This document shows positions 11,173 to 17,381 of a stretch of DNA of 21,547 bases, piece after piece. The DNA is taken from positions 1 to 21,547 of the IMG/VR virus record IMGVR_UViG_3300046001_004348; one strand, written 5' to 3'. How positions within the stretch are numbered: position 1 is the first letter of the stretch; every line of letters begins with the position of its first letter. The notes below the pieces were generated by a model. That model had not been told where the DNA came from and did not search any database. It worked only from the letters and a program-made list of their open reading frames with translations. Source of the DNA: a virus. Position numbers and translations under genes: made by a program.

Positions 11173-11682
11173 ATGCAGTTAAGTATAGTTGGTTGTCCCG
11201 ATAAAGAGCGATTCAGGCCTTATGTGAAGCGTGCTGTTATTTTTTTTACAAATGAACTTATTTCTAAAAAGTTGTCAGAAAACATATACTTAAAGATAAA
11301 GTTCAATAAAGAATTAGATGTGCTTGGTTATGCTGAAGTGAAAGAATATAATAATTCTGGTAAACCAAGAGAATTTGAAATAGAATTAAACTACAATGTT
11401 AGTGGTCCTGATATATTAAGAACTTTGGCACATGAACTTGTACACATTAAACAGTTTGTTTATGGTGAAACCAACGAAGCCTTAACCCGTTGGAAAGGTA
11501 AGAAAGTTTCTAGTGATATTGATTACTGGTTTGAGCCATGGGAAGTAGAAGCAAGAGGTTTAGAATCAGCACTATTCACTAAGTTTGCTATTGAGGAGAA
11601 GCTTTGGAATGTGTTTACGGATGTAAATAATCTTGATGAACCAATAGAAGTAGAACCTATAGGCTGGAAAGAATACAGTTAA
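11173..11682 (+). CDS. Putative zinc metallopeptidase (HExxH)
   Basis: A 169-residue protein with the zinc-peptidase motif HELVHIKQ at about 88-95 on a helix preceded by DILRTLA. About 30 residues later comes WEVEARGLE, whose Glu or Asp could be the third ligand, as in gluzincin or SprT-like enzymes. The N-terminal half is beta-rich (IYLKIKFNKELDVLGYAEVKEY, residues about 38-59). There is no signal peptide, so the substrate is likely cytoplasmic. Similar ORFs occur in T4-like marine phages without known function. A strong AAGGAGAG site precedes the ATG and an intrinsic terminator follows 26 bp after the stop. Confidence 0.8.
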   Translation: MQLSIVGCPDKERFRPYVKRAVIFFTNELISKKLSENIYLKIKFNKELDVLGYAEVKEYNNSGKPREFEIELNYNVSGPDILRTLAHELVHIKQFVYGETNEALTRWKGKKVSSDIDYWFEPWEVEARGLESALFTKFAIEEKLWNVFTDVNNLDEPIEVEPIGWKEYS

Positions 11683-12031: not shown

Positions 12032-12106
12032 ACTCGGTTCGTCTATCGGTTAGGACATTGCCCTTTCACGGCAGTAAGACCAGTTCGATTCTGGTACCGA
12101 GTACCA
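12032..12106 (+). tRNA. tRNA-Glu (anticodon TTC), CCA encoded
   Basis: Acceptor ACTCGGT (12032-12038) pairs with ACCGAGT (12096-12102). It has a D arm with GTCT/GGAC, anticodon stem TTGCC/GGCAG with loop CTTTCAC, and T arm ACCAG-TTCGATT-CTGGT. The discriminator is A and CCA is encoded at 12104-12106. The CGTCTA and CCCTTTCACGG marks are those of bacterial tRNA-Glu. The acceptor starts with A1-U72, unlike the G1-C72 of the usual bacterial gene. Confidence 0.95.
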
Positions 12107-12281
12107 AGTTGTCAAAAGTTGCCGAGCTTTGAATCGGGGGTATCTTGCTCGTCCTTACGCAAGAGGTGTTATTACAGCATTCTGACAATGTAATAACTGT
12201 GGTTACTACAGAGTAAAAAAGTGTAACTAACGATGAATTCCAATCGAGGGCTTGAGACAACAAGTAGCTCGTCCCAATTAT
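12107..12281 (+). ncRNA. Candidate structured RNA between tRNA-Glu and tRNA-Cys
   Basis: 175 bp without a convincing ORF, but with strong local foldings: GTTATTACA/TGTAATAAC (12168-12176 with 12189-12197, nine Watson-Crick pairs), TGGTTAC/GTAACTA (12200-12206 with 12223-12229), CTTGC/GCAAG (12144-12148 with 12159-12163), and a possible closing helix GTTGTC/GACAAC (12108-12113 with 12256-12261). It sits exactly between two processed tRNAs, so RNase P and tRNA 3' processing would release it as one RNA. T4 has two stable RNAs (C and D) of unknown function in its tRNA cluster; this could be an analogue. Family unknown. Confidence 0.45.
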
Positions 12282-12359
12282 GCACCGATGGCAGAGTGGC
12301 TTAATGCAACGGATTGCAAATCCGTAAAATCGTAGGTTCGAATCCTACTCGGTGTTCCA
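12282..12359 (+). tRNA. tRNA-Cys (anticodon GCA), CCA encoded
   Basis: Acceptor GCACCGA (12282-12288) pairs with TCGGTGT (12349-12355), with G1-U72. The anticodon arm is ACGGA-TTGCAAA-TCCGT and the T arm GTAGG-TTCGAAT-CCTAC. The discriminator is U73, a known cysteine identity base, and CCA is encoded at 12357-12359. The D stem is short (GCA/TGC). Confidence 0.93.
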
Positions 12360-12360
12360 A

Positions 12361-12407
12361 AGTATACCACAAAGTCTATTGACAATGTGTATATATAATG
12401 ATATACT
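12361..12407 (+). promoter_or_regulatory. Sigma-70 promoter with upstream 11-bp element, driving structured RNA and tRNA-Gly
   Basis: AGTATACCACA (12361-12371), seven bases, TTGACA (12379-12384), a 17-bp spacer and TATACT (12402-12407). The element and its distance to the -35 box are identical to the promoter at 6024. The spacer also shares TATATAATG with that copy. Transcription would start near 12414, just before a GAGA-capped hairpin. Confidence 0.75.
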
Positions 12408-12413
12408 AGTATC

Positions 12414-12625
12414 TACTGTTGAGAAACAGCAAAACTTCCGTCTCTCTTGGAGACCCTGTAACCGGTAAGCAGGATTTTTAGTTTAGTGTTATCAGGGTAT
12501 CGTTAATAGACGTATTAACTATGCGGGCCTAACTGGCGAGGGACAGGTCCTGATATAACTGCTTAGTCGCTATGGGATGGAAGCACCAGACCCCTAAATT
12601 GAGCAGATAACACTAAATTAAGAAT
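12414..12625 (+). ncRNA. Candidate structured RNA with a 20-bp closing helix
   Basis: About 210 bases between a strong promoter and a tRNA-like element, with no ORF. It begins with a GNRA hairpin (CTGTT-GAGA-AACAG, 12416-12429), then GTCTC/GAGAC (12440-12454) and CCTG/CAGG (12455-12473). A 20-bp helix (12474-12493 with 12606-12625, two G-U pairs) closes a domain with at least three hairpins: GTTAATA-GACG-TATTAAC (12502-12519), GGGCCT/AGGTCC (12525-12550) and TGCTT/AAGCA (12560-12585). GGG in that last loop faces CCCC at 12591, a possible pseudoknot. It does not match tmRNA, RNase P RNA, 6S RNA or group I intron cores as I know them. Confidence 0.6.
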
Positions 12626-12627
12626 AT

Positions 12628-12696
12628 GCGGTGGGTTGGAGAACAGATTAAGCTTCCCGTTTAATCACCTTTGTGCAACTCAAAGACACCGCTCCA
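12628..12696 (+). tRNA. Degenerate tRNA-like element, Gly-like, CCA encoded
   Basis: Six acceptor pairs (GCGGTG 12628-12633 with CACCGC 12687-12692), U73 and an encoded CCA (12694-12696). The T arm is CTTTG-TGCAACT-CAAAG, with one change from the usual T loop (G at 55). The D arm is minimal (GTT-GGAG-AAC), the anticodon-type stem GATTAA/TTAATC holds a 9-base loop with TCCC, and the variable region has 2 bases. At 66 bases without CCA it is too short for a normal tRNA. G1-C72, C2-G71, U73 and the CC in the loop are glycine identity marks, so it may be a decayed tRNA-Gly or a tRNA mimic that guides processing of the RNA upstream. Confidence 0.5.
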
Positions 12697-12701
12697 GATT
12701 T

Positions 12702-12775
12702 GCGGGATTAGTTTAGTGGTAAAACGAAACCTTGCCAAGGTTTAGTTGTCAGTTCGATTCTGTCATTCCGCTCCA
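12702..12775 (+). tRNA. tRNA-Gly (anticodon GCC), CCA encoded
   Basis: Acceptor GCGGGAT (12702-12708) pairs with ATTCCGC (12765-12771), with one G-U. The anticodon arm is AACCT-TGCCAAG-GTT in the usual register (loop TTGCCAA, anticodon GCC), and the T arm carries GTTCGATTC. U73 and encoded CCA (12773-12775) fit glycine. It lies 5 bp after the tRNA-like element. Confidence 0.94.
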
Positions 12776-12779
12776 ATAT

Positions 12780-12911
12780 ATGAATAAAAAAGAAGAAGTT
12801 AAAACTGAGCATAAAGTACCTGAGGTTAAATGGGGTAAGTATTTGACACCAGAAAAACTGACTGAGCTTTTAGATAAAGTATATTCACAAGTAAATAAAG
12901 AAAAGAAGTAA
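12780..12911 (+). CDS. Small Lys-rich ORF between tRNA-Gly and tRNA-Met (43 aa)
   Basis: An ATG only 4 bp after the tRNA-Gly CCA opens 43 codons ending 4 bp before tRNA-Met. The protein is highly charged (Lys and Glu) with a central KWGKYLTPEKLTELLDKVYS that looks like an amphipathic helix. No Shine-Dalgarno is possible because the upstream bases are the tRNA acceptor. After tRNA processing the message would be almost leaderless. Codon use resembles the neighbours. No family recognised; moderate confidence that it is translated. Confidence 0.5.
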   Translation: MNKKEEVKTEHKVPEVKWGKYLTPEKLTELLDKVYSQVNKEKK

Positions 12912-12915
12912 CTTC

Positions 12916-12990
12916 CGCGGAGTAGCTCAGGGGTAGAGCATTGGACTCATAATCCAGAGGTCGTAGGTTCGATTCCTTCCTCCGCAACCA
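12916..12990 (+). tRNA. tRNA-Met (anticodon CAT) with initiator-like C1-A72 mismatch, CCA encoded
   Basis: Acceptor CGCGGAG (12916-12922) against CTCCGCA (12980-12986) leaves C1 and A72 unpaired, the main signal for Met-tRNA formylation. The anticodon loop is CTCATAA. The anticodon stem has G29-C41, G30-C40 and A31-U39, so two of the three GC pairs of a classic initiator. The D stem is C11-G24, elongator-like. The T stem has a T50-T64 mismatch. A73 and CCA (12988-12990) are encoded. It may serve as a phage initiator tRNA or be an elongator that lost pair 1-72; an Ile-type lysidine tRNA cannot be excluded. Confidence 0.9.
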
Positions 12991-15256: not shown

Positions 15257-15409
15257 TTAAAAAAAGCGGTGTATTGCAGGACCGCCCATAAATCCTTGAG
15301 TCATCATATAAGGATAATAATGTTTCATCATTTCAGACATTAACCATGCTTGATAATCTTTGTATGGTTGTAAAAAATATTTACTTTGAAGTTGCCACAT
15401 ATGTTCCAT
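15257..15409 (-). CDS. Small Met/Tyr-rich hypothetical protein (50 aa)
   Basis: The frame extends upstream to 15487 inside the cyclase gene, but the ATG at 15409 has a GGAG site about 7 bp before it and is the likely start. The 50 residues include YFLQPYKDYQAWLMSEMM and HYYPYMMTQGFMGGP, rich in Met, Tyr and Gln, with no signal peptide. It overlaps the last 29 bases of the cyclase gene and ends 16 bp before the autotransporter ATG. Its place in a tight operon supports translation. No family recognised. Confidence 0.5.
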   Translation of the reverse strand: MEHMWQLQSKYFLQPYKDYQAWLMSEMMKHYYPYMMTQGFMGGPAIHRFF

Positions 15410-17381
15410 TCCAATTCTCCGGTTTACCTTCTTCAAGCCTCTCCAACATATTAACATAATATTGTTGAAGTGGAGTTTTTTTCTCAATTAATATCTTGAG
15501 TGTTTCAATGGCATCAATCCAATCACCATTATAATAATCTTCTAAGAAATCTTTATGTTCGATTGTTTCATCACCTAGAGTATAGATTCTTACTCCAATC
15601 TTTTTACCTTTAACAGCAATACAATCCAATTCAGTAACAGGATATTCATCCTTTACTCTTTCAGCTGTTAGTGGTCCTAATACAATTCTTACACCATAGG
15701 GTTTACTTTGACCTTCTAAACGTGATGCCAAATTAACAGTATCACCTAAGCAAGTATAATCAAATCTCTGGTCACTTCCCATGTTACCCACAACAACAGT
15801 ACCAGTATTAATACCAAGACCCATACCAAAGGCAGGTACTCCTTCTTTGGTAACAATATCATTGAAAGTATCAAGACTATTCATCATTTCAAGAGCTGTC
15901 TTTACTGCCAACTTAGCATGATTGATTTCTTCAACAGGAGCATTCCAAAATGCCATCTGAGCATCACCAATATACTTGTCTAATGTTCCGTTGTTTGTTA
16001 AAATCTTTTCGGTCATCGCAGTCATATAACGATTCATAATCTTAGTGAGACCTTGTACATCAGTACCATAGTGTTCAGAGATTGCCGTGAAGCCTCTAAC
16101 ATCTGTAAACATAATAGATAATTCTTTTGATTCACCACCAAGTACCAATAACTCAGGATTCTTTTGTAATTTTTCAACTAATGCTTTTGATAAGTATGTA
16201 CCAAATTGTTTTTTGATTTGTTGCTTCTGTAAAAATTCACTTACAAATTTAATGCCATAGGCATGAAGTATAACCAATACAAGACCAGCAATAAGGCAAG
16301 TAACGTCAAAAAGATATAGGTACTCCGAATACAAATACCTACTAACAGGCAAAATACTACAAAGAACAATAACACATGAGAAAAGTCCAACATAAGTCCA
16401 CCTCGTTAGAAATAATAGAATAAGTCCTAATGTAACTAAAGATAATATTTCAACTCCATCCATCCAATCAGGCCGGTTAATAACTACACCATTAATCATT
16501 GTACCAACTAATGCAGCTTGTAATTCTTGTGGCCATACAGCACCTTTGGCAGTTGGTACTGGATTGGCAATACCTGCAGCTGAAGTTCCTACAATCACAA
16601 TGGCACCACCAAAATCTTTAGGCAAATCTACCATCGATACAGATTTACTTTGTTGTGACCAATCAATCCAAACTCGTCCTAGATTATCTGTGGCAATAGG
16701 ACCAAATTTTGGAATACGCATCTTCTCAATGCCATTCTCATTTACTTTTACTTGTGTAGTGGTATCATTAGCCACAACACGGAGAATCTCCATTGATAAA
16801 CTAGGATAGAATTTACCTTGTGATGTTACAATCAAAGGTACTCTACGATTTACTCCGTCAATTTCTGGTAATGTGTTTGTTGTGCCTACACCAACAGCAC
16901 TATTTTCTAATTTTGGAATGTTAGCAATAATGCCTGGGTATTCAATGAGTGGTGCATCTTTAGGACCAATGATTGCAATGCCAGGAGTTCGAGGAGTATT
17001 CTTATCTTTATTAGATGGTGTGTTACTTAAAATTACCGGGAACTTATTAAGAACATTAAGTAACCTATCATCTTGATTGCTTCGGTCAGGATCAGGCATA
17101 AGAATATTGAAAACAACCACTCCAGCATTTCTCTTATAAAGTTCTTGTATAATATTAGCGTATTCACCCCGTGGGAAAGGCCATTGACCATATCTTGATA
17201 AAGTTTCTTCATCTATGTTAACCGTGTAAATGTTATTCTCTGTTATTGGTTTAGAAGTAATGATAGTATCAAAATATCGAAGCCTTACAGATTCAACAAA
17301 AGATGGATCCACAATCCGAACACATAGCACCAAACTTAAAGTGATTAATGCCGTCCAAGGAGATAGTAGTATTTTTTTCAT
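15381..17381 (-). CDS. CHASE2-domain class III adenylate/guanylate cyclase
   Basis: A 666-residue membrane enzyme. An N-terminal membrane anchor (about 8-24) leads to a periplasmic CHASE2 sensor (about 30-305: DTIITSKPITENNIYTVNID, WPFPRGEYANIIQEL, VGTSAAGIANPVPT). Three membrane segments (about 313-385) follow, then a class III cyclase domain (about 415-600). Metal ligands Asp427 (MFTDVRGFT) and Asp473 (DKYIGDAQM), the purine-site Lys469 and the transition-state pair Asn550/Arg554 (NLASRLEG) are all present. YTCLGDTVN at the second substrate position favours ATP, so cAMP is the likely product. It overlaps the upstream small gene as ATGA. CHASE2-cyclase next to FecR is a familiar bacterial pairing, but not a phage one. 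Confidence 0.93.
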   Translation of the reverse strand: MKKILLSPWTALITLSLVLCVRIVDPSFVESVRLRYFDTIITSKPITENNIYTVNIDEETLSRYGQWPFPRGEYANIIQELYKRNAGVVVFNILMPDPDRSNQDDRLLNVLNKFPVILSNTPSNKDKNTPRTPGIAIIGPKDAPLIEYPGIIANIPKLENSAVGVGTTNTLPEIDGVNRRVPLIVTSQGKFYPSLSMEILRVVANDTTTQVKVNENGIEKMRIPKFGPIATDNLGRVWIDWSQQSKSVSMVDLPKDFGGAIVIVGTSAAGIANPVPTAKGAVWPQELQAALVGTMINGVVINRPDWMDGVEILSLVTLGLILLFLTRWTYVGLFSCVIVLCSILPVSRYLYSEYLYLFDVTCLIAGLVLVILHAYGIKFVSEFLQKQQIKKQFGTYLSKALVEKLQKNPELLVLGGESKELSIMFTDVRGFTAISEHYGTDVQGLTKIMNRYMTAMTEKILTNNGTLDKYIGDAQMAFWNAPVEEINHAKLAVKTALEMMNSLDTFNDIVTKEGVPAFGMGLGINTGTVVVGNMGSDQRFDYTCLGDTVNLASRLEGQSKPYGVRIVLGPLTAERVKDEYPVTELDCIAVKGKKIGVRIYTLGDETIEHKDFLEDYYNGDWIDAIETLKILIEKKTPLQQYYVNMLERLEEGKPENWNGTYVATSK

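Follow-up and report, generated by a model that had tools for sequence, protein, structure and literature searches.

What is encoded by positions 12414 to 12625 of the phage DNA examined here, an apparently noncoding interval lying among tRNA genes? The window, by which we mean the whole 21,547-base stretch that was analyzed, is an IMG/VR contig of an uncultured phage with T4-like genes, including those for SbcC/D-type recombination nuclease subunits and a clamp loader; the nearest cultured relatives of the clamp loader belong to Methylophilales phage Melnitz (63% amino acid identity) and cyanophage S-CREM1 (62%). A 666-amino-acid protein is encoded on the minus strand at 15381-17381, and it is related (37% identity) to proteins of Melnitz and of Pelagibacter phage HTVC008M that bear the annotation adenylate/guanylate cyclase. 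Four tRNA genes are located at 12032-12990. A second conserved noncoding stretch, RNA2 (12107-12264), lies directly 3' of the CCA of tRNA-Glu and is approximately 73 to 99% identical in relatives; GUUGUC/GACAAC may form a closing pairing, and RNA2 folded alone (as 12107-12281) was no better than its shuffles (z = -0.68).

The original prediction treated the interval as one undescribed structured RNA closed by a 20-bp helix, situated behind a strong promoter and transcribed together with tRNA genes. Much of this description held. A sigma70-type promoter (TTGACA-N17-TATACT, 11 of 12 matches, with a TG before the -10 element that makes it an extended -10 promoter) occupies positions 12379 to 12407 of the plus strand, and transcription would be expected to start near 12413-12415; a transcript common to the tRNA genes is suggested by this promoter together with the order of the genes. 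The interval was correctly described as free of ORFs, none of at least 60 amino acids covering it. Its predicted folding energy, for which a comparison with shuffled sequences had been proposed, was -69.8 kcal/mol, against -50.2 ± 4.2 kcal/mol in 200 dinucleotide shuffles (z = -4.68), none of which reached so low a value. No family in Rfam 15 matched the interval, either at gathering thresholds or at an E value of 10 with permissive filters; what the latter search did return for the window was the tRNAs and, on another strand or elsewhere, matches at the level of chance.

Two RNAs within the interval

In one respect, the original prediction has to be revised. Relatives were fetched by means of the ORF at 11173-11682, giving 57 loci, and in these the first part of the interval (12414-12473) and a tRNA-like element at 12628-12696 are conserved neighbors, with the stretch between them exchangeable. 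The interval therefore comprises two RNAs that are independent of each other and meet at 12473/12474; we refer to them as RNA1 (12414-12473) and module A (12474-12625, approximately 150 nt). The single pseudoknot that had been suspected proved to be present but to be two, one in each RNA.

RNA1 lies directly 3' of the strong promoter and consists of a hairpin followed by a compact pseudoknot. The hairpin, CUGUU-GAGA-AACAG at 12416-12429, is evident from sequence and fold and carries the GNRA cap that had been anticipated; variants have a GGGA loop (locus L053) or the form AAGUC-GGGA-GACUU (L064 and L067). In the pseudoknot region (12438-12473, plus strand), helix H1 is formed by 12440-12445 and 12449-12454, helix P2 by CCUGU (12455-12459) and GCAGG (12469-12473), and the pseudoknot by CCG (12438-12440) and CGG (12463-12465). 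Relatives of RNA1 were gathered by a pattern scan for CCYGTANNCGGTAAGCRGG, from which H1 was left out; 31 of the 35 distinct stretches upstream had H1 with CC in front of it, compared with 1.4% in shuffled sequences, and up to five pair types occurred at a position. The scan located RNA1 also ahead of tRNA clusters in other phage loci and in front of phage hsp20 genes. No Rfam family matched RNA1, and it was not found in the hsp20 leaders of seven cultured phages. Judged by where its sequence recurs, RNA1 is a widespread leader element common to tRNA operons and a chaperone mRNA.

The pseudoknot of RNA1 was seen in the phage hsp20 5' untranslated regions of L129, L131, L133, L134, L137, L140, L144, L150, and L155. 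Several of these copies have a T4-late-like TATAAATA box upstream, and in L134 a stretch resembling a ROSE thermosensor, with a subthreshold Rfam match, follows RNA1 on its 3' side.

The 3' boundary of module A is marked by the separate tRNA-like element (12628-12696, plus strand), which carries a CCA, was missed by ARAGORN, and is followed by tRNA-Gly(GCC) at 12702-12775 (plus strand; called by ARAGORN and Rfam). Its acceptor has the form GCG..CGC with U73 and CCA, and it has a loop of the UCC/ACC type, features of glycine identity; a D-arm cannot be clearly made out, and the T-loop is unusual (UGCAACU, UGCAAAU, or a still more degenerate sequence). More than 20 distinct sequences of this element occur in the fetched loci, for example in L008, L009, L018, L028, L060, L098, L118, L143, and L172.

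Fold and covariation of module A

The fold of module A was derived with RNAalifold from an alignment (A1) of 23 distinct sequences. These copies are closely related, and the relatives were gathered by means of conserved blocks of sequence, a route biased against divergent members. Module A is closed by P1, in which 12474-12493 pairs with 12606-12625 exactly as the 20-bp helix had been drawn, and which is supported by both fold and covariation. Inside it, on the same plus strand, lie the P2 hairpin (GUUAAUA-GACG-UAUUAAC, 12502-12519), with five of its seven pairs changed on both sides, and P3 (GGGCCU/AGGUCC, 12525-12550), with three of six pairs so changed and a conserved loop, AACUGGCGAGGGAC. 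P4 (UGCUU/GAGCA, 12560-12605) encloses two short helices, 12574-12576/12592-12594 and 12578-12580/12586-12588, in which four of the six pairs have changed on both sides. The proposed pseudoknot joins GGCGA (12535-12539) to UCGCU (12567-12571); it can be formed in all 23 sequences and displays no double-sided change.

Over the 23 sequences, 99.0% of cells are paired, against 36 to 47% when the strands are slid by one to three columns. Double-sided changes that keep the pairing are found in 19 of 46 pairs and amount to 124 cells (41 ± 4.5 in shuffles), and the covariation score is 0.338 (0.113 ± 0.009 in shuffles). An Rfam match, or a long helix that fails to covary, had been named as grounds for abandoning the idea of an undescribed structured RNA; no family matched, the interval folds below its shuffles, and 7 of the 17 modeled pairs of P1 have changed on both sides. 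The five pairs of P4 and the five of the pseudoknot are invariant except for one cell, a G-to-A change in the pseudoknot of L185 that converts G-U to A-U, and because both elements are nearly invariant, it is their complementarity that speaks for them. Among module A members, the longest stop-free run in the six frames is 23 to 48 codons, and no coding frame is apparent.

Recurrence and placement in tRNA arrays

A scan with a single conserved block yielded approximately 20 further distinct phage contigs that carry module A and lack RNA1. These copies are approximately 85 to 90% identical, with a mean column identity of 84%. At most of the loci, just 137 to 611 nt can be aligned to the window, and since the flanks hardly align, conservation or exchange of the RNA reaches much further than that of the DNA around it. 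A covariance model (R1) found 30 copies in 81 sources, all of them module A and one per contig.

In the further contigs, module A always lies within a tRNA array and usually takes up the space from the CCA of tRNA-Glu to the next tRNA; about nine distinct contexts have tRNA-Glu(UUC) as the upstream gene. P1 in most contigs starts at the upstream CCA, ends 0 to 4 nt before the next tRNA, or does both, and because it spans the distance from CCA to next tRNA, tRNA maturation would define the ends of module A. In L185 and L197, module A is located directly behind a promoter-like stretch. The copy in the window has no called tRNA directly on either side and no overlapping terminator-like element.

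Searches of 50,697 phage records (by blastn), 72,556 plasmids, and 5,426 genomes of E. coli gave no credible match to module A, so that cultured phages supplied no homologue. When 84,980 genomes were scanned with its most conserved block, one copy emerged: a diverged module A (L218, 3688-3901) in an uncultured Bacteroidetes bin, at a locus cut by the contig end, in the order plsX-like gene, tRNA-Ser(GGA), module A. The plsX-like gene was named from a reading of its translation; it and tRNA-Ser are the neighbors at this contig-end locus, and no toxin gene was recognized beside this single copy as far as the truncated contig reaches. None of 298 further genomes belonging to that order had such a copy, and integration at a tRNA gene and misbinning are both possible origins.

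Exchange of helix-closed RNAs at one slot

Between RNA1 and the tRNA-like element, the fetched relatives carry one of several inserts. The slot holds a short linker and no module in L047 and L106; module A in the window, L003 to L005, L043/L044, and L057; module B in L053 and L045; module C in L006 and L050; module D in L048 and also in the less related L064, L067, and L146; module E in L063; module F in L060; and B and A in tandem in L002. No similarity among the module types was detected by blastn, and the R1 model matched none of types B to F. B to F resemble A in having a long closing helix and in their border sequences, which are ATTTTTA at the 5' end and in most cases TTAAGAAT or AAAAAT at the 3' end. 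Double-sided changes were found in 18 of 52 predicted pairs of module D (four sequences) and in 14 of 44 pairs of module F (five sequences), the fold of each being unlike that of A; variation in module B was too small for a covariation test. Pattern scans for B and D found none away from RNA1, and the other matches that were read looked like chance.

Inter-tRNA gaps without ORFs were also surveyed in these loci. In 14 of 118 such gaps the two ends can form a helix with each other over 14 or more pairs, against 1.5% when ends were swapped between unrelated gaps, and the 14 fall into seven sequence clusters. To judge from these predicted helices, tRNA arrays probably house several helix-closed RNAs, of which module A would be one.

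Two further observations were made in the course of this comparison. A closing helix of approximately the form CCATATTGAAACACATT...AGTGTGTTTCAATATGG recurs around quite different interiors in gaps of L028, L067, L146, L176, L178, and L179, as if one clamp served many RNAs. In L142 (13857-14120), an RNA1-like hairpin and P2 are followed, ahead of tRNA genes, by what may be a helix-closed RNA (AUAGCGG...CCGCUAU), possibly a further module type.

Comparison with known RNA families

Rfam searches of the window and its relatives, at gathering thresholds and at an E value of 10, gave, among the matches listed, tRNAs, the subthreshold ROSE-like stretch, and chance-level matches. The tRNA cluster of S-CREM1 (L169, OP535465) contains three known structured RNAs, manA (RF01745), wcaG (RF01761), and abiF (RF03085). 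There, manA (616-830) fills exactly the gap between tRNA-Leu, which ends at 614, and tRNA-Asn, which begins at 830. Rfam lists manA as cis-regulatory, and the catalogue in which it appeared has it as a candidate riboswitch acting in cis (PMC2864571); this exact fit suggests a trans-acting or processing role in S-CREM1 rather than that of a riboswitch. Like module A, manA belongs to a phage tRNA array, fills an inter-tRNA gap, is of similar size (192-position model), and has a GACG-loop hairpin and a pseudoknot, but the order of its helices is different and it lacks a closing helix of 17 to 20 bp. The manA model gave no match at an E value of 10 on the window or in 20 records that contain RNA1 or one of the modules, and R1 gave none on L169; on these results, manA was rejected as the identity of RNA1 or module A. 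The wcaG covariance model likewise found no match on the window stretch.

ROOL and GOLLD are complex structured phage RNAs of unknown function that are often found near tRNA islands (PMC12286853). They are far larger than module A, GOLLD often exceeding 800 nt, and form cages; neither Rfam model matches module A. The abiF RNA neutralizes the AbiF toxin (PMC12373285) and, like type III antitoxin RNAs, is a structured, phage- or host-encoded binder of a toxin; these RNAs are, however, short hairpins or repeat pseudoknots adjoining the toxin gene, whereas module A has another fold and no recognized toxin neighbor. Module A occupies the same niche as manA, wcaG, abiF, ROOL, and GOLLD, but it is a member of none of these families.

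A parallel had been offered in T4 RNAs C and D, which are stable, lie inside a T4-like tRNA cluster, and have no known function. This comparison gained no support: blastn, which registers sequence similarity only, detected no homologue of module A in the 50,697 phage records, and a search of the open-access literature was empty.

Interpretation

We consider it likely that module A is a stand-alone noncoding RNA of a family outside Rfam 15, a unit of phage tRNA arrays that is freed by tRNA-maturation enzymes and acts in trans. It would be cotranscribed with tRNAs (in the window, behind the leader RNA1), and its placement suggests excision by these enzymes, with RNase P acting at the 5' end of the downstream tRNA and 3' trimming at the upstream CCA; the long P1 duplex could also be cut by RNase III. 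P1 would clamp the two ends together, which may shield them and stabilize the RNA, and P2, P3, and P4, tied by the loop pseudoknot, would offer the near-invariant loops to a partner. Action in trans is suggested by the conservation of the interior and by the lack of a fixed downstream gene, and near-invariant loops in otherwise diverged phages argue for a conserved partner, most likely a host protein or ribonucleoprotein that would be used or disarmed during infection. Recurrence in some 20 otherwise very different phages implies that module A does something useful for phages.

A specific form of this explanation, which we advance tentatively, is that module A serves counterdefense as a mimic or sponge of an RNA sensed by an abortive-infection or toxin system, the RNAs of the slot being alternative decoys. 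The replacement of A to F by one another in close relatives resembles an arms race, and the abiF RNA in the S-CREM1 tRNA cluster is in keeping with such a role, but module A is extremely conserved, unlike a fast-evolving decoy, and the one copy of its conserved block found in the 84,980 genomes scanned has no recognized toxin gene alongside. It is also conceivable, and we hold it no more firmly, that tRNA arrays are cassette islands in which A and no fewer than five other modules (B to F) swap at one slot between a pseudoknotted leader and a tRNA or tRNA-like RNA, each being released by tRNA-processing enzymes and acting in trans on host defense or translation.

The other readings that we weighed against a trans-acting RNA appear less probable. 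It is unlikely that module A is an element for processing or spacing in cis whose P1 brings the flanking tRNAs together and controls cleavage, for instance through base pairing to the tRNA-Glu CCA. Such a role would suit the extent of P1 from CCA to next tRNA, the capacity of the CCA itself to pair with UGG in several copies, and the excess of helix-closed gaps, but it leaves the near-invariant interior loops and the complex fold unexplained, and the window copy lacks a called tRNA directly on either side. Less likely still is a riboswitch- or attenuator-like regulator of the tRNA operon in cis, for which RNA1, lying directly behind promoters and ahead of tRNAs or hsp20, is a better candidate than module A, which often sits inside arrays between tRNAs rather than at transcript starts and in the window is not overlapped by a terminator-like element. 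Covariation leads us to reject a MITE-like mobile DNA element with 20-bp terminal inverted repeats and an incidental fold as very improbable: long inverted ends, the tandem in L002, and the empty site in L047 and L106 would fit it, but the inverted ends differ between copies and yet covary as pairs, the internal helices covary, placement is bound to tRNA borders, and the empty site has no clean target duplication. Least credible of all is a divergent form of a known RNA (tmRNA, standard or permuted, RNase P, 6S, a group I intron, or manA). Some relatives, phage Melnitz among them, do carry a permuted, two-piece tmRNA (PMC9004378), and manA occurs in the S-CREM1 array; however, Rfam gave no match for this stretch at an E value of 10, ARAGORN found no tmRNA, standard or permuted, in the window, and the module A model misses the S-CREM1 manA region. 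The original prediction, too, had been unable to match the interval to tmRNA, RNase P, 6S, or group I introns.

Significance

Module A is a well-supported addition to the few structured RNAs of phage tRNA islands (manA, wcaG, ROOL, GOLLD, and abiF), and its consensus fold and conserved loops are ready for probing. The swapping of unrelated helix-closed RNAs at one slot bears on the role of noncoding RNAs in tRNA islands and suggests that the cargo of phage tRNA arrays is not limited to tRNAs.
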